Origin: Tunturibacter empetritectus
GTDB taxonomy: Bacteria > Acidobacteriota > Terriglobia > Terriglobales > Acidobacteriaceae
Direction of reading: 5' to 3'
DNA: 64,000 nucleotides
NCBI RefSeq assembly: GCF_040358985.1
Contig: NZ_CP132932.1
Location: 4,402,001-4,466,000 of the forward strand
Made by a program: the position numbers and the translations under genes. Positions within the stretch are counted from its first letter, which is position 1; each line of letters starts with the position of its first letter. The notes under the pieces were generated by a model that saw nothing but the letters and a program-made list of their open reading frames with translations, searched no databases and had not been told where the DNA came from. Shown here in pieces: positions 55,097 through 63,502 of this stretch.

Positions 55097-55546
55097 CAGT
55101 AGTCCTCAGATCAAAGTATAGGCACTCCCCCAAAGATGTTCGATTGTAGCCTGTTCTTTTGTTGTCATCCCCGAAGGGGATCTGCGGTTGCGGTTACGGT
55201 TTCCTGTTTCTTTTGTCTCCTCTATCGTCCCATCCAACTAGTTCTTTTAAACTCAGGCAAAAGCGATAGTTGCACAGTCCAAGAGCAATCGCAGTCGGAT
55301 CCTCAGTCCTGCGGTTCTGCCAACACCTAAAACATACGCCTCGCGCATTTGTAATACCCAATCAGCTGTACTTGAATTAGGACCCTGAAGCCCTGCACGA
55401 ATTGGCTATGTCCAACGCTTTAAGCCTGCAAGCGACCTGAATTGAATACTTTATCTTCAAGCCATTTGCAATAAGCACTTTGCACGCAAAACGAGCGGCA
55501 AAACTACTCCGCATCATGGTATGGCGGAACGGAATGCCGAGACCAC
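55097..55546. other. intergenic stretch with a small palindromic motif
   Basis: About 450 bases between the small hypothetical gene and the flgL stop. A short hairpin is at 55167-55181 (ATCCCC-GAA-GGGGAT). It looks like the short dispersed motifs seen in acidobacterial spacers, but only one copy is here, so that is not shown. No gene was recognised. Confidence 0.4.
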
Positions 55547-56449
55547 TTATCTCATCAGTTGAAAGAGGTCCTCTTGGTTCCCCAGGTTACTAATGACGCT
55601 GAGCAGCGCCTGATGTTGAGTTTCGGCAGACGAAAGTTGCGTAGCCACCTCCTCAGGATTCGCTGAAACCAGAGTGCCCTGCGTCACCACAAGCTGACTT
55701 TCACTGGTTTGCGCAAAGGTACTGGCGGAGTTGAGTCGGCTCAAAGAGCTGTCGAGTGTTTGCCGCTGATCGGATAGCTGACCAAGAGCGGTGGTGAGCG
55801 CAGCCGTATCGGTCGTGAGACTAGCGGTCGAGGCGCCACTCGAGATATCGCCGATCAACTGACTCAGTGCCCCCACAATCCCGGTGGTCCCCGAACCGAA
55901 GACAGAGGAACCAGGCAGATTGATTGGAAGTTTTTGTCCTCCTGGCACTTCGACGGTCTGCACATTAGTGTCGCCGGCGTAGGTAGCTGTCGGTGGAACG
56001 GCAGCGGTATTGAGCGTGAAAGGCTGGACGGACCCCTGGCTCCCGCTGAAGAGATACTGCCCTTGATAACTGGTATTCGCCAGCGAGACCACTTCAGTAA
56101 GAATCCCGCTGAGCGCTTGAGCGATGCTGGCATTGTTCGACGCGTTCTGTGTGCCGTTGTTGCCTTGCACCGCGAGCGAGAGCGCCTGATTGATCTGGGT
56201 CACCACGTCGCCCAAAGTCGAGTCGGCAACCTGCAGCCTCGATCCCACCCCGGCAGCAGATTGAACGAACGTGTCCGCCTGTTCGATCTGACTGGCCAAG
56301 AGGGTGCTCTGTGCGACAGCAACCGGATTGTCCTGAAGCGATTGGATACTCAATCCGCTAGATAGCTCGGAGGTCAGGTTATTGATCGCGGAACTGGACT
56401 GGTTGAGTGCCCCGGTCAGACTGCTGAGATAAGTCGGATCTACTCGCAA
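55547..56449 (-). CDS. flgL: flagellar hook-associated protein 3
   Basis: FlgL is the second junction protein between hook and filament. The 300-residue protein begins RVDPTYLSSLTGALNQSSSA, the flagellin-like coiled-coil start, and ends SSAETQQTLQA-type ATQLSSAETQHQALLSVISN, with QLSDQRQTLDSSLSRLNSAS before it. TTG 56449 follows AGGAG at good spacing. It is the last gene of the minus-strand flagellar operon and follows flgK by 49 bases. Confidence 0.88.
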   Translation of the reverse strand: MRVDPTYLSSLTGALNQSSSAINNLTSELSSGLSIQSLQDNPVAVAQSTLLASQIEQADTFVQSAAGVGSRLQVADSTLGDVVTQINQALSLAVQGNNGTQNASNNASIAQALSGILTEVVSLANTSYQGQYLFSGSQGSVQPFTLNTAAVPPTATYAGDTNVQTVEVPGGQKLPINLPGSSVFGSGTTGIVGALSQLIGDISSGASTASLTTDTAALTTALGQLSDQRQTLDSSLSRLNSASTFAQTSESQLVVTQGTLVSANPEEVATQLSSAETQHQALLSVISNLGNQEDLFQLMR

Positions 56450-56498
56450 GATGCGCTCCTGATTGGTAGTTGGTTAAGTCTAAGAGTGCCGCGTCTTC

Positions 56499-57911
56499 TT
56501 AGGTCACTGTAGTTTGTTCACCAAGATTGATTGCGCTCGCCATCAGGGTGTCAACGATCGAGAACACCTGAGACGCCGCCTGATAGGAGCGCTGATATTG
56601 CGTTAGATTCGATGCTTCTTCGTCAGAAGATACGCTCGAGAGCGAATTGCGCTGAGTCGAAAGCTGAGTGAGCGTGGCCTGTTGCGTTGCATTCTCCGTC
56701 GTCACGGCCGAAGCATCACTGCCAACCTGATCAAGGAACGAGGCGAGGAAACCTGTGGCCGTCTGGGTCCCGACCACATTGGTCGTGGAAAGATCGGCAA
56801 GAGTAGTAGCGTTGCTGTTGCCCGAAGACCCCTCTCCAGCAGAGGCAGCCGCTACGGCCCCAGGAGAGGTTGCAGAAACCGCGATCGTTGCAGCAGAACC
56901 AGTCGCACTGCCCGGCAGGCTGAAGATCGCCAGTCCTGGGTTCCCGCTACTGTCAACTCCTAGCTCGTTCTGCTGATTTACTGCAGTTCCAAGGGAAAAG
57001 GCTAACTTATCTAACGCCGCGGAATAAGTCGACAAGTACTGATCCCTCGCTTGCAACGCTCCACCCAGGTCTCCGCCGCTGAGGTTTGAAGTCACGTCCT
57101 GAGGAGGGTCCCCTGCCAGCACGTCTGTGTTGCCTGCCACCTGTGTCGTGCTAACCTGAATGGCCTGATCACCGCTAACCAAAACTGCTCCGCCGCTGGT
57201 TGTCAGAGAAATGCCGTTCTGTGAAGTTGAAATTTGGTCCAATCCAACGAGCTGAGACAGTTGATCGATATCCTCTTGCCGCTGATCTTCAAGACTGCCG
57301 GCATCCCCATTCGGGCTGGTACTGGCGATCTTGGAATTAAGTGAAGCTATCGAAGAGGTGAGCGAGTTTATTTGGCCGACGTCACCGCTGACTTGCTGAT
57401 TAAGATTGACGGAGATCTGCGAAAGCTGACTTGATGCACTGTTGAATGCGCCGGCTAAAGCGGTCGCAGCAGTTAGTACTTTCTGTCGCGTTGCTGCATC
57501 AGACGGATTAGCTTCCAAGGAAGATAAAGAGCTAAAGAATCCGTTGATCGCGGTGCCAAGTTGAGACGAAGCTACGGCTCCCGACCCCGTCGAAGCCGAG
57601 GTCAATCCGAATATGTTTTCAACCTGCTGCAAAGCAGTTTGAAGCGCTGCGCTCTGCGATGTGGTCTGTGTTTGCTGCTGTACTCGTTGTTCGAGAACGC
57701 GATCCCTCTGTGACGAAACGGTAGCAGTGACGCCGGTGCTCTGGGCCTGCCCGCTAAGGGAGACGGAATCCCCCGACTGGAAGCTAACGACCTCACGCGT
57801 GTAGCCAGGAGTAAGTTGATTCGCAACGTTGTTAGCGGTCGCGTTCAGGGCAGCCTGATCAGCCAGTAAGGCCTCGCTGGCTATATTCAATAATGAGGTT
57901 AGTGTGCCCAT
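56499..57911 (-). CDS. flgK: flagellar hook-associated protein 1
   Basis: FlgK is the first junction protein of hook and filament. The 470-residue protein starts LTSLLNIASEALLADQAALN with the axial ANNVANQLTPGYTREVV (NVAN/NxxT) motif, and ends LTQYQRSYQAASQVFSIVDT, the C-terminal coiled coil common to flagellar rod, hook and HAP proteins. The long middle part is Ser/Thr/Asn-rich. The start ATG lies within the 3' end of the preceding flgN-like gene (13-base overlap). Confidence 0.92.
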   Translation of the reverse strand: MGTLTSLLNIASEALLADQAALNATANNVANQLTPGYTREVVSFQSGDSVSLSGQAQSTGVTATVSSQRDRVLEQRVQQQTQTTSQSAALQTALQQVENIFGLTSASTGSGAVASSQLGTAINGFFSSLSSLEANPSDAATRQKVLTAATALAGAFNSASSQLSQISVNLNQQVSGDVGQINSLTSSIASLNSKIASTSPNGDAGSLEDQRQEDIDQLSQLVGLDQISTSQNGISLTTSGGAVLVSGDQAIQVSTTQVAGNTDVLAGDPPQDVTSNLSGGDLGGALQARDQYLSTYSAALDKLAFSLGTAVNQQNELGVDSSGNPGLAIFSLPGSATGSAATIAVSATSPGAVAAASAGEGSSGNSNATTLADLSTTNVVGTQTATGFLASFLDQVGSDASAVTTENATQQATLTQLSTQRNSLSSVSSDEEASNLTQYQRSYQAASQVFSIVDTLMASAINLGEQTTVT

Positions 57912-58159
57912 TGGTCTCTCATGTCTCTCCCGTGCAGGCGGTGAAGTGTAGCTAGATTCGACTCAAGATTTCGAAGAATGAGTTCAAGTAGATGCCTCTT
58001 TGCCAAAATCGAACTAAGACTGCCTTTGCTGCATACGATGCTGTACTTCGCAAGCGCTGCAATTCGCTCTTCCAGGGTTTGCAGTTTATTCAGATCCAGA
58101 ATAGTGAGAGCCTTAATCGTCTCATCGAATACGTCAGCCACTGTTTGATCAATTGTCAT
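57899..58159 (-). CDS. flgN: FlgN-like flagellar export chaperone (short)
   Basis: An 86-residue, helical protein (IKALTILDLNKLQTLEERIA, then HLLELILRNLESNLATLHRL) lies between flgM and flgK, where FlgN, the export chaperone for FlgK and FlgL, usually is. The sequence itself does not clearly show the family, and it is shorter than E. coli FlgN (138 residues), so the call rests on position and helical shape. It is two bases after the flgM stop and overlaps flgK. Confidence 0.5.
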   Translation of the reverse strand: MTIDQTVADVFDETIKALTILDLNKLQTLEERIAALAKYSIVCSKGSLSSILAKRHLLELILRNLESNLATLHRLHGRDMRDQWAH

Positions 58160-58161
58160 TG

Positions 58162-58470
58162 TTATTCCAGTAAGGACTGTATGATTTTGTCTGCCATATC
58201 TGACGACGACACTGTGTACGTTCCAGCTGCGATCGCTTCCTGCAAAGATGAAACCTTCACAGTTCGCGTATCGGAAGCCCCTAGAGACTGAAATACGAGG
58301 CCCCCTGTTGAACTCAAAGCCGTCTCGTCGGCATGTACTACAGTTGCGCTAAGTGCTTCAGATTTGCCGGCTACAGTCCCTGACGTATTAACAATTACAG
58401 CCGGCTGCGTCTCAGATGGAGTGATCGCGTTGGTTGTCTGTTGACTGCCGATTCCACTTGTATAGCTCAT
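58162..58470 (-). CDS. flgM: anti-sigma-28 factor FlgM
   Basis: FlgM binds sigma-28 (FliA) until the hook is complete. The C-terminal part has SDTRTVKVSSLQEAIAAGTY, then TVSSSDMADKIIQSLLE, the conserved sigma-binding helices. The N-terminal 50 residues are low-complexity and probably disordered, as in other FlgM proteins. The gene is directly preceded by a consensus sigma-28 promoter (58494-58520), as expected for an autoregulated flgM. The 102 residues match the family length. Confidence 0.85.
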   Translation of the reverse strand: MSYTSGIGSQQTTNAITPSETQPAVIVNTSGTVAGKSEALSATVVHADETALSSTGGLVFQSLGASDTRTVKVSSLQEAIAAGTYTVSSSDMADKIIQSLLE

Positions 58471-58493
58471 GATGAGCCTCCGTCTACTTGACT

Positions 58494-58520
58494 ATATCGG
58501 CCTTCAATCCGCAAACTTTA
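58494..58520 (-). promoter_or_regulatory. sigma-28 (FliA) promoter for flgM-flgN-flgK-flgL
   Basis: On the minus strand the order is TAAAGTTT (58520-58513), an 11-base spacer, and GCCGATAT (58501-58494). The consensus is TAAAGTTT-N11-GCCGATAA, so 15 of 16 positions match. It lies in the gap between flgJ and flgM, 24 bases before the flgM ATG. Confidence 0.9.
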
Positions 58521-58528
58521 GTACTCAA

Positions 58529-58834
58529 TCATTTTTCTTTTTCCGCATGCGGCTGATGCGCTTTAGCGACCTGCTCGACAACCCACTGAGCAATCCCAAA
58601 GCCGCCTCCCTTCGATATGGCTTTTGCAACAGATTCCGTTCCGTAGCTGCTCATCGTGTCAGAAGCCGAGTCATCGCTCTTCTCTTCCTCTCCCCAACTA
58701 CTCTGACCATGCTGCATTGGCTTTAGCAGTTCTTGTAGCATCATTGCCTCGAATTGTTGAGCAGCATCGACTAGTTTGGCTTGCTTCTGAAGTTGGATAA
58801 CAGGCGAACTTGAGACATCCGGGTTAATCTTCAT
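58529..58834 (-). CDS. flgJ: flagellar rod-binding protein FlgJ (N-terminal domain only)
   Basis: A 101-residue protein with the rod-binding part of FlgJ: KQAKLVDAAQQFEAMMLQEL, LKPMQHG, then a helical C-terminus with SYGTESVAKAISKGGGFGIA. The muramidase domain of E. coli FlgJ is absent, as in many phyla, so a separate enzyme must open the cell wall. It is not in this window. The start overlaps the flgI stop by four bases (ATGA). Confidence 0.82.
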   Translation of the reverse strand: MKINPDVSSSPVIQLQKQAKLVDAAQQFEAMMLQELLKPMQHGQSSWGEEEKSDDSASDTMSSYGTESVAKAISKGGGFGIAQWVVEQVAKAHQPHAEKEK

Positions 58835-60000
58835 AGGACTTCGATCTCTGCCTCTAGCGCGCCCGCAGACTTCATTGCCTGAAGGATCGAGATCACATCA
58901 CGTGCTGAAGCTCCAATTGTCTGTAGGCTTCGAACCAGATCATCTACCGTAGCTCCCTGTTTTAACTCGATTCGGTTGACCGGCTTATCTTGAGCGTCGA
59001 TTCTCGTCTGCTGCACGACCTGCGTCGTGCCACCTGAGGACAATGCGTTAGGTTGCGACACCTGAAACTCGCTCACCACATTTACTGCTAATCCACCATG
59101 AAGGATAGACACCGGCTGCAGGACGACCGTTCCGCCAATAACTACCGTTCCTGTACGCTCGTTGACAACTACTTTCGCTCGAGGAAAGACAGGTACTTCT
59201 ATTGACTCGACCTGAGCCAATAACGCTGGAATCTCTTCATCGGCGGCAACCAGCAAATCAATCCTTCGGCTATCGAGAACGTGCGCAGCAGGCCGTCCTA
59301 ATGATTGATTGATTGCTAGTGCCATGGCTTCCGCGGTACGAAAGTCAGCTTCGTTCAACAGGAGCGAGAATTGCTTTTTTCCTTCAAGATCCAACGGAAC
59401 CCCACGTTCTACCATCGCCCCAAAAGGTACTCTCGCAGTGTTGGGGTGATTGTATTGCTTTGAGTTCCCGTTCACATTGATCGAATAGCCACCTACTACT
59501 AACGGTCCTTGTGCCTGGGCATATATCTTTCCATCCGATCCATAGAGAGGAGTCATTAGAAGTAGCCCCCCCTCGAGACTCCTTGCATCGCCTGCAGAAG
59601 AAACAGTTATGTCCAGCTTGGTGCCCGGCCGAGCAAAGGGGGGTAAGGTGGCCGCCACAAAAACTGCGGCAAGGTTTTGTACTCGAATCGCCGATGCTGG
59701 TACGCTTACTCCCATCCGCAGCAAAGTTGACGCTAATGTTTGTGCTGGAAAGGTTGTTTGCTGGCTGTCGCCGGTGCCTTGCAGCCCGACAACTATACCG
59801 TATCCAACTAATTGATTGTCACGAATACCTTCAATTGAAGAGATATCTTTAACGCGGGCCTGCCTTAATGCAGATGTAATTGAGTCTGAAGAAAGAGCAC
59901 ACGCAGACGAGATAACAAATAGCAAACATGAAAGAAAGGCCGAAAGTCCTCTGATCAGTTTCTTTGATTCTAATTTTTGGCGTTTCTTAACAATGTACAT
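58831..60000 (-). CDS. flgI: flagellar P-ring protein FlgI
   Basis: FlgI forms the P-ring in the peptidoglycan layer. From ATG 60000 (preceded by GAGGA) a signal peptide (GLSAFLSCLLFVISSACALS) leads to a 389-residue protein with DISSIEGIRDNQLVGYGIVV, GLQGTGDSQQTTFPAQTLAS, and RPAAHVLDSRRIDLLVAADE. The C-terminal part has NERTGTVVIGGTVVLQPVSI, typical of FlgI. A GTG four codons earlier (60012) overlaps the flgH stop and is an alternative start. It is in operon order between flgH and flgJ. Confidence 0.93.
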   Translation of the reverse strand: MYIVKKRQKLESKKLIRGLSAFLSCLLFVISSACALSSDSITSALRQARVKDISSIEGIRDNQLVGYGIVVGLQGTGDSQQTTFPAQTLASTLLRMGVSVPASAIRVQNLAAVFVAATLPPFARPGTKLDITVSSAGDARSLEGGLLLMTPLYGSDGKIYAQAQGPLVVGGYSINVNGNSKQYNHPNTARVPFGAMVERGVPLDLEGKKQFSLLLNEADFRTAEAMALAINQSLGRPAAHVLDSRRIDLLVAADEEIPALLAQVESIEVPVFPRAKVVVNERTGTVVIGGTVVLQPVSILHGGLAVNVVSEFQVSQPNALSSGGTTQVVQQTRIDAQDKPVNRIELKQGATVDDLVRSLQTIGASARDVISILQAMKSAGALEAEIEVL

Positions 60001-60011
60001 ACAATTCCTCA

Positions 60012-60851
60012 CTAAAAAATCAAAACCTTTTGTAGAAGACGAACTACGGGATTCTGACGGTGGGTGTAGTCATTGATAATTCCCTTCCCACGTACTTCAA
60101 GCTCCAAACTAGAGATAGCTGTCGATAAAACTTGATTCTGTTGAGAAATATCCTCAGGACGGACAAGGCCCCGCAAAACAATTGTCTGTGTCTGCTGGCT
60201 GAACTCAACTTGCCGAGCTGCCTCAATAACAAGCATCCCATTTGAGAGCACCTCTATCACTTGTCCGCCAAATGTAGTGCTTAGACTCGAATTCGTTGCA
60301 CTTGTCCCGGCCGCGTTAAGTCCAGACGAGGATGTTTGATTGATCAAATTCTGCAATGCGTTACTTGCATGAAGTGTACCGATGAGACCTGATATGGCGG
60401 AACTTGCATTCGATGCCCGTGAGTTCTTGACGGTGCCATCCGTCGAGGCCGCGAGGCTTTCAGAGACTACAACCGAAATCAGATCATGTGGTCGCATGGC
60501 CCGCACATCCGTATTGATGCGGGTCAGTCTTCCGCTATCTGTCCAGATGGATCCTGGCGCAGGCTGAATGTTGGAATTTTCCGCCCGAACCCTCTCCAGA
60601 TAGGAGGATAACGATGAGGCTGCCACATTCGGTTTGGGCTCAATCAGTTTATGGATCATTTCAGTCTGTGCATGCAACGAGGGGAGCACCAGAAGCAACG
60701 GCAATATTGCTGCGATCGTCGACGCGAAGCGACTGCAACTTTTGTTTTCGAACAAAGTCCAAAACGATTGGCTTGTAAAGAGCGGGTCTCTACGGGATTC
60801 TGATTCGCGGATGAAGCTAAAAACCGAGCTGATCCTTAAAATTCGTCTCAT
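60012..60851 (-). CDS. flgH: flagellar L-ring protein FlgH without a lipobox
   Basis: FlgH forms the L-ring in the outer membrane. Family features are present: GSIWTDSGRLTRINTDVRAM, the DLISVVVSESLAASTDGTVK motif, FGGQVIEVLSNGMLVIEAAR and FSQQTQTIVLRGLVRPEDIS. The signal peptide (FASTIAAILPLLLVLPSLHA) has no lipobox cysteine, while E. coli FlgH is a lipoprotein. The protein may be held in the ring by contacts instead. An overlap of four bases (ATGA) links it to flgA. Confidence 0.88.
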   Translation of the reverse strand: MRRILRISSVFSFIRESESRRDPLFTSQSFWTLFENKSCSRFASTIAAILPLLLVLPSLHAQTEMIHKLIEPKPNVAASSLSSYLERVRAENSNIQPAPGSIWTDSGRLTRINTDVRAMRPHDLISVVVSESLAASTDGTVKNSRASNASSAISGLIGTLHASNALQNLINQTSSSGLNAAGTSATNSSLSTTFGGQVIEVLSNGMLVIEAARQVEFSQQTQTIVLRGLVRPEDISQQNQVLSTAISSLELEVRGKGIINDYTHRQNPVVRLLQKVLIF

Positions 60852-61387
60852 GGCTTCATCTCCACATTGGACGGCCCTCGAACAATACCGGAGTATTGTT
60901 CTGATACAGACTGATCGTCCGTGTTTTCGCGTAATAATCGAACTTTTATAACTTCTCCCAACCTGCCGTTCTCTTCCGAGATTCCGGTAACTTCAAGCCT
61001 CGAAAATAGATCTTGCCTACAAACCCGAACGACATCACCAGCATGAATTACTACGGATCCTAGAGTATTTTTGGCATTCTCATGCCCTCTGAATTGTGCC
61101 GACAAAATCAAATTTTGCAATGGAAAAGCAAGGGCTGGCCAGTCTGGATGATCACAATGTATAACCATCGCCCAGGTCTGTCCTAGTATCAGGTCCGACT
61201 GAGTTCTCGCTATACGATAACCACCGCTTTCCAATATCGGAAATGAGAAACTTGTGGTGCCCGCAGCAATTGCAACTGATGGCGTTTCATAACAGATTGC
61301 GGGAACTGTATTGGCAACGCTTATTCCGTGTAGCAAAAAGAAGAGGCTTTTGCCGGCTGTCTTGAATTCTGAAAAAATGCTAATCAT
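60848..61387 (-). CDS. flgA: flagellar basal-body P-ring formation protein FlgA
   Basis: FlgA is the periplasmic chaperone for P-ring assembly. The 179-residue protein has the SAF-like C-terminal part: VIHAGDVVRVCRQDLFSRLE, then GRLGEVIKVRLLRENTDD and YSGIVRGPSNVEMKP, where homologues have the same closing strands. The N-terminal part (about 40 residues) has a hydrophobic stretch (SLFFLLHGISVANTVPA) as a signal. Identity is lower than for the other flagellar genes, but gene order (flgG-flgA-flgH-flgI) is the standard one. Composition is clearly less GC-rich. Confidence 0.8.
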   Translation of the reverse strand: MISIFSEFKTAGKSLFFLLHGISVANTVPAICYETPSVAIAAGTTSFSFPILESGGYRIARTQSDLILGQTWAMVIHCDHPDWPALAFPLQNLILSAQFRGHENAKNTLGSVVIHAGDVVRVCRQDLFSRLEVTGISEENGRLGEVIKVRLLRENTDDQSVSEQYSGIVRGPSNVEMKP

Positions 61388-61393
61388 GTCAAC

Positions 61394-62182
61394 CTACCGA
61401 ACAAGACCGTTGATCTGCGAGTACATGTCGTCAGCGACATGTATTACTTTGGAGTTACTTTCGTAGGCGCGTTGTGCCAAGATCATTTGCACGAACTCCG
61501 CGACGACGTCAACGTTTGAGTTTTCTAGATACCCTTGCTGTAGTGTTCCTATTCCGCTGGTACCACCTGGGCTGTCAGTAATGGGATTTCCCGAAGCGGC
61601 CGTCTGCTGCAGCAAGTTGCTTCCGATAGAACTAAGCCCTCCAGGATTAGGAAAAGTTGCTAGTTGAATCGTGCCAAGTTGGGCGGCATTTGTCTGCCCG
61701 GGAAGCATCGCAGTTACGACTCCGTATTGAGAGATCGTTACCGCGCCGGCATTGGAAGGAATGGTGATTGCAGGTAAAACTGTGTCCCCATTCGAGGTTA
61801 TGATTGTCCCCTGACTGCTCAAATGAAAGTTACCAGCGCGAGTGTAAGCAATAGTTCCATCAGGGAGAGAGATCTGGAAAAATCCCGCGCCTTGAATCTC
61901 AAGGTCGTATTGATTACCGGTATTATTGGGATCACCTTGCGTCATAATTACTTCACTTGCCGCCGTCTTCGTACCTAGACCGACCTGCAAGCCAGCGGAA
62001 AGAGTCTGCTGTGTCTCGGCAGATCCGGGAGTGATCAGGTTTTGGTAGATCATGTCTTCAAATTGCACTTGACGTTGTCTGAAACCCGCAGTTCCAGAAT
62101 TCGCGAGATTGTTTGCGATAGTGTCCAGATTTGTTTGCTGGGCGCTCATTCCGCTTGCTGCTGTGTATAGTGCACGAATCAT
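61394..62182 (-). CDS. flgG: flagellar distal rod protein FlgG
   Basis: FlgG forms the distal rod. From the ATG at 62182, preceded by AGGAG, the 262-residue protein begins MIRALYTAASGMSAQQTNLD with TIANNLANSGTAGFRQRQVQ, and ends VDVVAEFVQMILAQRAYESN with SKVIHVADDMYSQINGLVR, the axial-protein ends. DLEIQGAGFFQISLPDGTIA with YTRAGNFHL is the usual central motif. The frame continues 34 codons upstream, overlapping the flgF 3' end, but the ribosome-binding site decides for 62182. Confidence 0.95.
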   Translation of the reverse strand: MIRALYTAASGMSAQQTNLDTIANNLANSGTAGFRQRQVQFEDMIYQNLITPGSAETQQTLSAGLQVGLGTKTAASEVIMTQGDPNNTGNQYDLEIQGAGFFQISLPDGTIAYTRAGNFHLSSQGTIITSNGDTVLPAITIPSNAGAVTISQYGVVTAMLPGQTNAAQLGTIQLATFPNPGGLSSIGSNLLQQTAASGNPITDSPGGTSGIGTLQQGYLENSNVDVVAEFVQMILAQRAYESNSKVIHVADDMYSQINGLVR

Positions 62183-62228
62183 TTCAAGCTCCTTGTTCTG
62201 TAGATGACTCAGAAATATGGGTCTCTCG

Positions 62229-62984
62229 TCAAACTCGGGGAAGATCCTCTGAGGCCGTTTTATCGAAATCGTTATTGAAGACACTCAACGCTTTTTGCAT
62301 CATCTCCGCTTGCCGTTGCATCAACACGAGTTGCATCGTGCCGTGAACGGCGTCTTCATTGGCTCCCTCTACCGAGCCTTGTTCTACCGAGACGTTTGCA
62401 GCACTGGGCTTTGCCCCATTAGCGGAAAAGCGGTTGGAACCCTCAGCAGAGAGAACTGATCTATCTGCAAAATCGAAGGTTCCGACCTTACCTACAATTA
62501 CGCTGCCGTCTGCTGTCGAAACCGAGATGCTGCCGTCGGGGGATACGTAGATGTTGCCCGTGGGGATGATGATGGGCTTGAGATTGGCGTCGAGCACTGG
62601 CTCTGCCTGGCTTGTCTGGAGCATTCCCTTGGGGGAGCGGGAGAAAGCTCCATCTCGTGTGTACCGGATGCCGTTGGAGGTCTGGATGGCGAAGAAGCCC
62701 TGCCCTTCGAGCGCCAGGTCGAGCGGATTGCCGGTGGCTTTCAGCTCTCCCTGTCCGAGATCGAGTCGGTTGCCACCTAAGACTCCGAAGCCGTTAACGG
62801 ACTGGCCGACCTGCGATGCTGTCTCGGGATCCTGGTCGATGCCGCCTGCAAGAACTCCACTGAAGTAATCGCGTTGGGCACGAAAGCCGGAGGTTCCGGC
62901 GTTGGCCAGATTGTTGGCCGCGGTGTCGAGTGCCTGCGTGCGTGCCAAGAGCCCTGTATATGCTGCGTAGAGTCCGCTGTCCAT
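62229..62984 (-). CDS. flgF: flagellar proximal rod protein FlgF
   Basis: FlgF is a proximal rod protein. The 251-residue protein begins MDSGLYAAYTGLLARTQALD with TAANNLANAGTSGFRAQRDY and has LDLALEGQGFFAIQTSNGIR with YTRDGAFSRSP. It ends in a helix (LMQRQAEMMQKALSVFNNDF) as in other axial proteins. It is the first gene of the flagellar operon in this window. The divergent cheY-like gene lies about 130 bases away. The start ATG 62984 has no strong ribosome-binding site, so control may be by the promoter region. Confidence 0.92.
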   Translation of the reverse strand: MDSGLYAAYTGLLARTQALDTAANNLANAGTSGFRAQRDYFSGVLAGGIDQDPETASQVGQSVNGFGVLGGNRLDLGQGELKATGNPLDLALEGQGFFAIQTSNGIRYTRDGAFSRSPKGMLQTSQAEPVLDANLKPIIIPTGNIYVSPDGSISVSTADGSVIVGKVGTFDFADRSVLSAEGSNRFSANGAKPSAANVSVEQGSVEGANEDAVHGTMQLVLMQRQAEMMQKALSVFNNDFDKTASEDLPRV

Positions 62985-63054
62985 GCCACGAGCTTATGCA
63001 GTTCGGTGGCCGAAGTTGGAGAGGAGATAGTTAGAAAACGCTAACGGCGTTCAT

Positions 63055-63081
63055 TCAAGGTTGCTGTTGATCTGCCGATAC
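63055..63081 (+). promoter_or_regulatory. sigma-28-like promoter before the cheY-like gene
   Basis: TCAA (63055-63058), a 15-base spacer, and GCCGATAC (63074-63081) match TAAA-N15-GCCGATAA at 10 of 12 positions. The predicted RNA start is about 63088, 28 bases before GTG 63116. Confidence 0.6.
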
Positions 63082-63115
63082 AGTAGTTAGACCAGAAGAT
63101 GTGTTGGGAGGGTCG

Positions 63116-63502
63116 GTGCGAGCTCTAATTATTGATGATTCGGCAGTGATGAGGAAGGTTATCGAGCGAGCGTTGCGGCAGGCAGGCCTCGAACTGAGCG
63201 AGGTATTGCAGGCTTCGAATGGGGAGGAGGCGTTGCAGACTCTTCGTGACAATCAAGGTTCGGGTGGGCTGTCGTTGATCCTGAGTGACATCAATATGCC
63301 GGTGATGGATGGGCTGCAGTTTCTGGAGGCTCGGAAGCAGGAGAATCTCGCGCACGGCGTTCCGGTGGTGATGATTACGACGGAGGGCAATGAGAGCTTC
63401 GTGCTGAGGGCGATCGCTGCGGGGGCGCAAGGCTATATCTGCAAGCCGTTCACTGCCGAGCAGGTCAAGGCGCGGGTTCTTCCTCTGTTGCGTGTGGCGT
63501 GA
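63116..63502 (+). CDS. CheY-like response regulator (receiver domain only)
   Basis: A 128-residue receiver domain: VRALIIDDSAVMRKVIERAL has the acidic pair, LSLILSDINMPVMDGLQFLE has the phosphorylated aspartate, and VVMITTEGNES with ICKPFTAEQV holds the conserved Thr and Lys. There is no output domain, so it should act as CheY does, at the flagellar motor or as a phosphate sink. GTG 63116 is preferred because the family starts here; GTG 63101 is five codons upstream. The gene uses G-ending codons, unlike most plus-strand genes of the window. Confidence 0.9.
   Translation: MRALIIDDSAVMRKVIERALRQAGLELSEVLQASNGEEALQTLRDNQGSGGLSLILSDINMPVMDGLQFLEARKQENLAHGVPVVMITTEGNESFVLRAIAAGAQGYICKPFTAEQVKARVLPLLRVA

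Follow-up and report, generated by a model that had tools for sequence, protein, structure and literature searches.

In Salmonella, the flgMN genes lie inside a flagellar gene cluster and are preceded by a class 3 sigma-28 promoter, which places FlgM synthesis under the very factor that FlgM inhibits. Transcripts started farther upstream also read through into these genes, and the sigma-28 site contributes a late transcript. In Bacillus subtilis, sigma-D promoters take the form TAAA-N14-16-CCGATAT. Acidobacteriota are a phylum with little genetics, and no paper on their sigma-28 promoters could be recognized by title among the literature matches listed, in a search whose scope left most subscription papers outside. 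For comparison with E. coli we used the FliA (sigma-28) consensus as given in Table 1 of PMC2859248, TAAAGTTT-n11-GCCGATAA.

The locus described here belongs to a soil acidobacterium and lies in a stretch of 64,000 nucleotides, referred to here as the window. A sigma-28 (FliA) type promoter of flgM is predicted on its minus strand at 58494-58520, from consensus match and conservation. The full minus-strand sequence at 58520-58494 is TAAAGTTTGCGGATTGAAGGCCGATAT, in which N11 separates the -35 box TAAAGTTT (58520-58513) from the -10 box GCCGATAT (58501-58494). The site shares with E. coli FliA promoters both boxes, the 11-nt spacer and 15 of the 16 fixed positions, which bears out the near-perfect match first claimed in a sequence-only reading of this DNA; FliA and FlgM are likewise both encoded. 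The sole mismatch is the last base, T here for A in the E. coli consensus, and the -10 box ends like the B. subtilis sigma-D form. The flgJ stop (58529) and the flgM ATG (58470) are separated by a gap of 58 nt, inside which the site falls; the 23 nt from the end of the site to the ATG include GGAGG. The predicted transcription start, at 58486-58489 on the minus strand, is based on spacing and on the A at 58489, a base of moderate conservation (an A occupies the equivalent position in 54 of 89 sites in a profile of Terriglobales flgM sites); it fits the start at 58487 proposed earlier. As in Salmonella, the promoter precedes flgM within a flagellar cluster; unlike at Salmonella flgMN, the genes behind it on this strand include flgK and flgL, and the open reading frame (ORF) in the flgN position lacks a supporting family match in Pfam and NCBIfam. 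We consider it highly probable (roughly 0.94) that the site is the FliA promoter of flgM, the flgN-position ORF, flgK and flgL, acting within a FlgM/FliA late-gene checkpoint. The promoter is real and conserved, and its mechanism is an ordinary one, expected for a bacterium with flagellar genes.

The genome does encode fliA, on whose presence the sequence-only reading had staked its claim: one FliA scores above the family cut-off (TIGR02479, 249.8 bits; cut-off 189.6). An alignment of this protein (residues 70-297) to E. coli FliA (6PMI, E 3.6e-52) keeps the RIRGA and DW-x-PR segments, including both arginines, which we take to be R74 and R91 of E. coli FliA. The predicted anti-sigma-28 factor FlgM (102 aa; 58162-58470, minus) passes its Pfam cut-off (PF04316, 36.4 bits; cut-off 25), falls below that of the NCBIfam equivalog TIGR03824 (35.9 bits; cut-off 40.75) and has a single weak match in the PDB, a FlgM chain (9wsf_B, E 0.11). 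Further along the same strand lie the 86-aa ORF called flgN by position alone (57899-58159), flgK for hook-associated protein 1 (56499-57911; PF22638; TIGR02492, 270.1 bits; cut-off 170.75) and flgL for hook-associated protein 3 (55547-56449; TIGR02550, 139 bits; cut-off 127.2). Upstream of flgM, also on the minus strand, is a gene for a flgJ-like rod-binding protein of 101 aa (58529-58834), too short for a hydrolase domain to fit; its matches are weak (PF10135, 21.9 bits; cut-off 25.1) or partial (TIGR02541, 36.1 bits; cut-off 193). Before it come flgI for the P-ring protein (58831-60012; PF02119, 419.2 bits), flgH for the L-ring protein (60012-60851; PF02107, 136.7 bits) and a flgA-like P-ring chaperone gene with weak matches (60848-61387; PF13144, 18.8 bits, cut-off 23.8; TIGR03170, 18.8 bits, cut-off 54.65). 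Two rod proteins of the flgE/F/G family, named by position, complete the series: flgG (61394-62284; PF22692, PF06429, PF00460) and flgF (62229-62984; PF22692, PF00460). Of the gene names given to this operon in the sequence-only reading, FlgJ and FlgA remain below their Pfam cut-offs and flgN is without family support.

Elsewhere the genome encodes FliF, FliI, FliM, FliR, FlhB, FlgD, FlgE, FliL and FlhA, among which FliF, FliI, FliR, FlhB and FlhA are the flagellar type III export genes that the search covered. FlgF is 100% identical to that of Edaphobacter lichenicola M8UP22, the nearest named record. A table in PMC11354219 apparently lists the E. lichenicola type strain as non-motile, so that the flagellar system is possibly not expressed in culture.

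The presence of FliA, FlgM and export genes, together with the known biology, makes it likely that the FliA-FlgM checkpoint is conserved here. FliA (sigma-28) RNA polymerase would start transcription at the site and produce flgM, the flgN-position ORF, flgK and flgL late. FlgM would hold FliA idle during hook-basal body assembly; upon the substrate switch of the export apparatus, FlgM would exit the cell, and the freed FliA would transcribe flgM, flgK-flgL, the flagellin gene at 3.71 Mb and a cheY-like gene at 63101. We infer FliA binding, initiation at this position, a joint transcript of these genes and the coupling of the checkpoint to export; for FlgM, both the interaction with FliA and its export once the hook is complete are predicted from family membership. 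On the strength of conservation, this analysis carries the sigma-28 promoter code over to Acidobacteriota, and it offers a concrete candidate regulon of flgM-flgK-flgL, flagellin and the cheY-like gene.

To describe conservation within the order, we assembled 111 flgM upstream regions from 107 genomes of Terriglobales, consisting of the window, 30 loci and 80 regions chosen among the matches listed that cover this genus and other genera; the set may include a few paralogues outside the flagellar cluster. The pattern TMAAG-N14-GCCGATA occurs exactly in 43 of these upstreams and with one mismatch in 31, for a total of 74/111 against 0 in reversed sequences, 2 on the other strand and 1/555 in shuffles. 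When N15 is allowed as well, 93/111 carry a site with at most one mismatch (reversed 0, other strand 2, dinucleotide shuffles 0/555), and 18/111 do not. A bit profile was built from the 89 sites that, at N14, deviate from the pattern at no more than two positions. Core -35 and -10 positions hold 1.3-2.0 bits, with 0.7 at the last -10 base; the 11-nt spacer is variable, with at most 0.3 bits at any position. Since these sites were selected by the pattern, the fair evidence lies in the controls and in the conserved bases outside the pattern: a C precedes the -35 box in 76/89 sites and a T follows TAAAG in 77/89, neither of which the pattern demanded. In contrast to the E. coli consensus, the -35 box at flgM in Terriglobales reaches out to C-TAAAGT, and the spacing is N15 in some sites.

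Named relatives were represented by 80 FlgF loci; flgI and flgK occur in order in 59 of them, and the other 21 lack one or both matches. The scan for sites admitted just six four-base starts of the -10 box. In the interval from flgI to flgK, the best site has no mismatch in 20 of the 59 loci, one in 24, two in 12 and more in three, so that 56/59 reach two mismatches or fewer. In these 59 loci, sites with at most one mismatch number 44 inside the flgI-flgK interval, which totals 62.9 kb, compared with 37 elsewhere on the same strand and 24 on the other strand, in 877.6 kb altogether; the commonest recurrent place outside the interval is the cheY-like gene. Together, the contrast of 93/111 with 0/555, the conserved boxes around a variable spacer and the recurrence among relatives point to a sigma-28 promoter of the flgM-flgK-flgL unit, and selection on the flgM promoter motif in Terriglobales is well supported by these comparisons. 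With fliA present, they also uphold the earlier claim of a sigma-28 promoter before flgM. It is extremely improbable that the site is a chance resemblance in intergenic DNA, with the flgF operon supplying all flgM, flgK and flgL transcript by read-through. Such a reading could point to the gap between flgJ and flgM, where no terminator-like site was found, and to loose matches that are not commoner than in the control, but it leaves unexplained why the boxes are conserved and the spacer variable at flgM in Terriglobales and named relatives alike, while controls seldom or never get to one mismatch.

A second predicted promoter of the sigma-28 type, TCAAGGTT-N11-GCCGATAC, is located at 63055-63081 on the plus strand, divergent from flgF. 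It precedes a gene for a cheY-like single-domain response regulator (133 aa; 63101-63502, plus; PF00072, 89.3 bits; cut-off 30.2). A peptide motif near flgF served to recognize this gene in 65/80 named loci, and 58 of the 65 upstreams have a site with at most one mismatch to TMAAG-N14-GCCGATA (0/65 in both controls). Whereas E. coli promoters carry the consensus -35 box, the cheY-like gene of Terriglobales mostly uses TCAAG or TCATG. The site is kept in 47/53 cases in which the gene lies on the flgF strand and in 11/12 in which it is divergent. The promoter accompanies the cheY-like gene in both genomic arrangements, and its retention across the two amounts to a natural test of function.

Sigma-28 type sites were found at the late genes flgM, flagellin and cheY-like; among upstreams on the strand of flgF, the early gene examined, 2/80 reach two mismatches or fewer. 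The sequence-only reading had proposed that the flgM promoter splits the operon functionally. The placement of the promoter agrees with this proposal, but because the flgJ-flgM gap showed no terminator-like site, the split is one of promoter placement and not a proven transcriptional break, and early read-through may also supply FlgM. A scan of 55300-63400 for sigma-70-like sites identified no promoter before flgF and none at flgM; its only hit in the interval was at 59977-60005 on the other strand, against 5.5 hits expected from shuffles. The sole terminator-like site on the minus strand in the same interval, at 55348-55334 behind flgL, is no evidence, since the region has five such sites against 7.6 in shuffles. 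It is possible, although we lean against it, that the promoter is real and adds a late transcript while much of the flgM-flgL transcript arises by read-through from upstream, an arrangement compatible with the main explanation. The 58-nt gap without a terminator-like site and the tight or overlapping upstream genes would favor such a contribution, while the scan that found no sigma-70-like promoter before flgF speaks against it.

The two-box search of the genome that had been suggested along with the original observation returned the flgM site as the only one in 5.03 Mb with at most one mismatch to the 16-base consensus. Within the window, two sites have three mismatches or fewer, compared with 0.12 expected from shuffles. 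Across the genome, the same threshold yields 24 sites against 30 in a backward-read control; weaker matches alone therefore carry no signal and cannot identify the regulon here, and loose-pattern scanning was rejected as a regulon finder. Narrower patterns gave 7 sites against 3 in the control (TMAAG-N13-15-GCCGATA) and 20 against 7 (TMAWG-N14-GCCGATR). Sixteen of the latter 20 were inspected: 12 lie inside an ORF of more than 150 aa, one is that of flagellin and one precedes a 118-aa ORF. A site at 4207931 falls inside flhB and was taken as chance. As a separate observation, TAATG-N14-GCCGATAG stands about 25 nt upstream of the 118-aa ORF (L337:1501-1909; G000:C1, 4297448 onward), which makes this ORF a candidate further sigma-28 target.

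About 136 nt upstream of its start, the flagellin gene at 3.71 Mb carries TAAAG-N14-GCCGATGA. Among 71 flagellin upstreams of Terriglobales (56 from genomes counted with FliA and 15 from genomes without), 49 carry a site no more than one mismatch away from the pattern; the controls gave 0 in reversed sequences, 8 on the other strand and 1/355 in shuffles. These sites mostly end in GCCGATG (48/62), a difference from the E. coli consensus. A leader of about 130 nt follows the GCCGATGA promoter (L033:1357-1488; G000:C1:3706355-3706486), with TGAACGC conserved right behind the predicted start. A structured leader was considered and is at most a lead: Rfam gave no leader match at eight flagellin loci, its one sub-threshold match being distant from the leader and on the opposite strand of one locus. 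Covariation is weak, since among the 10 pairs in a consensus fold of 23 leaders from the same genus, one shows compensating changes.

Flagellin without a FliA match (E 1e-40) was seen in 23 genomes and the reverse in 34, discrepancies that incomplete assemblies may explain to some extent. In the 15 genomes counted as FliA-less, a site persists in every flagellin upstream, with no more than one mismatch in 11 and two mismatches in 4. A search with the FliA protein found no full-length FliA in 10 of the 15; the other five were called FliA-less solely by the family search at E 1e-40. Nine of the ten genomes have no FlhA match (G036, G049, G065, G072, G078, G089, G096, G097 and G101), the tenth (G203) has an FlhA fragment only, and the FlgI match is absent in seven of the nine, G049 and G101 having kept it. 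In G049, FliA is reduced to a piece matching residues 274-314 at 78% identity (L318, G049:C5:336017-336139), while flgM, flgI and flagellin are still there; this genome appears to have lost its flagellar switch recently.

If another sigma factor also read the motif in Terriglobales, its persistence before flagellin in genomes without FliA would be explained, both in the 15 upstreams that keep the site and in the 10 genomes without full-length FliA. We judge this very unlikely, as recent loss of the flagellum, to which the G049 FliA piece and the nine genomes without an FlhA match point, explains the same pattern, and as five calls depend on the family search and some assemblies are incomplete. 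The simplest reading of flagellin promoters in FliA-less genomes is that they are relics of recent loss. A bolder reading, in which several lineages of Terriglobales lost the flagellum, FliA and FlgM but kept flagellin with its sigma-28-type promoter, the flagellin then taking on another role and its promoter passing to another sigma factor, seems unlikely. No title on flagellin in species that lost flagella concerned Acidobacteriota among the literature matches listed. According to a 2025 survey (PMC12199754), FliC is a good predictor of motility, and FliA occurs in 41% of non-motile genomes. Among the FliA-less genomes above, G036, G065, G078 and G097 (L271-L274) keep flagellin with a promoter-like site and have no match for FliA, FlgM, FlgI or FlhA; two of the four flagellin frames are complete and two run off the fetched stretch without a stop. 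The dN/dS ratio was tried as a test of such orphan flagellins and set aside: its values (0.03-0.19, nine pairs) fail to separate genomes with and without FliA because shared ancestry dominates.

A sample of 297 genomes from across Acidobacteriota yielded FlgM in 104. Outside Terriglobales we collected 50 flgM upstreams from 19 families (30 loci and 20 chosen among the matches listed). A site with N14 or N15 and at most one mismatch is present in 30/50 (reversed 2, other strand 1, shuffles 3/250) and missing in 20/50; N14 alone accounts for 17/50. In a different set of 298 genomes, FlgM and FliA are both present in 183 and both absent in 80, with FlgM alone in 13 and FliA alone in 22, co-occurrence counts suggesting that the checkpoint is likely conserved. 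Four genomes (G119, G202, G278 and G296) have FlgM and FliA with no flagellin, FlgI or FlhA match; some of the assemblies are incomplete, and the FliA-FlgM pair has possibly been retained or reused in them. The FliA of G119 is 49% identical to that of the genome described here.
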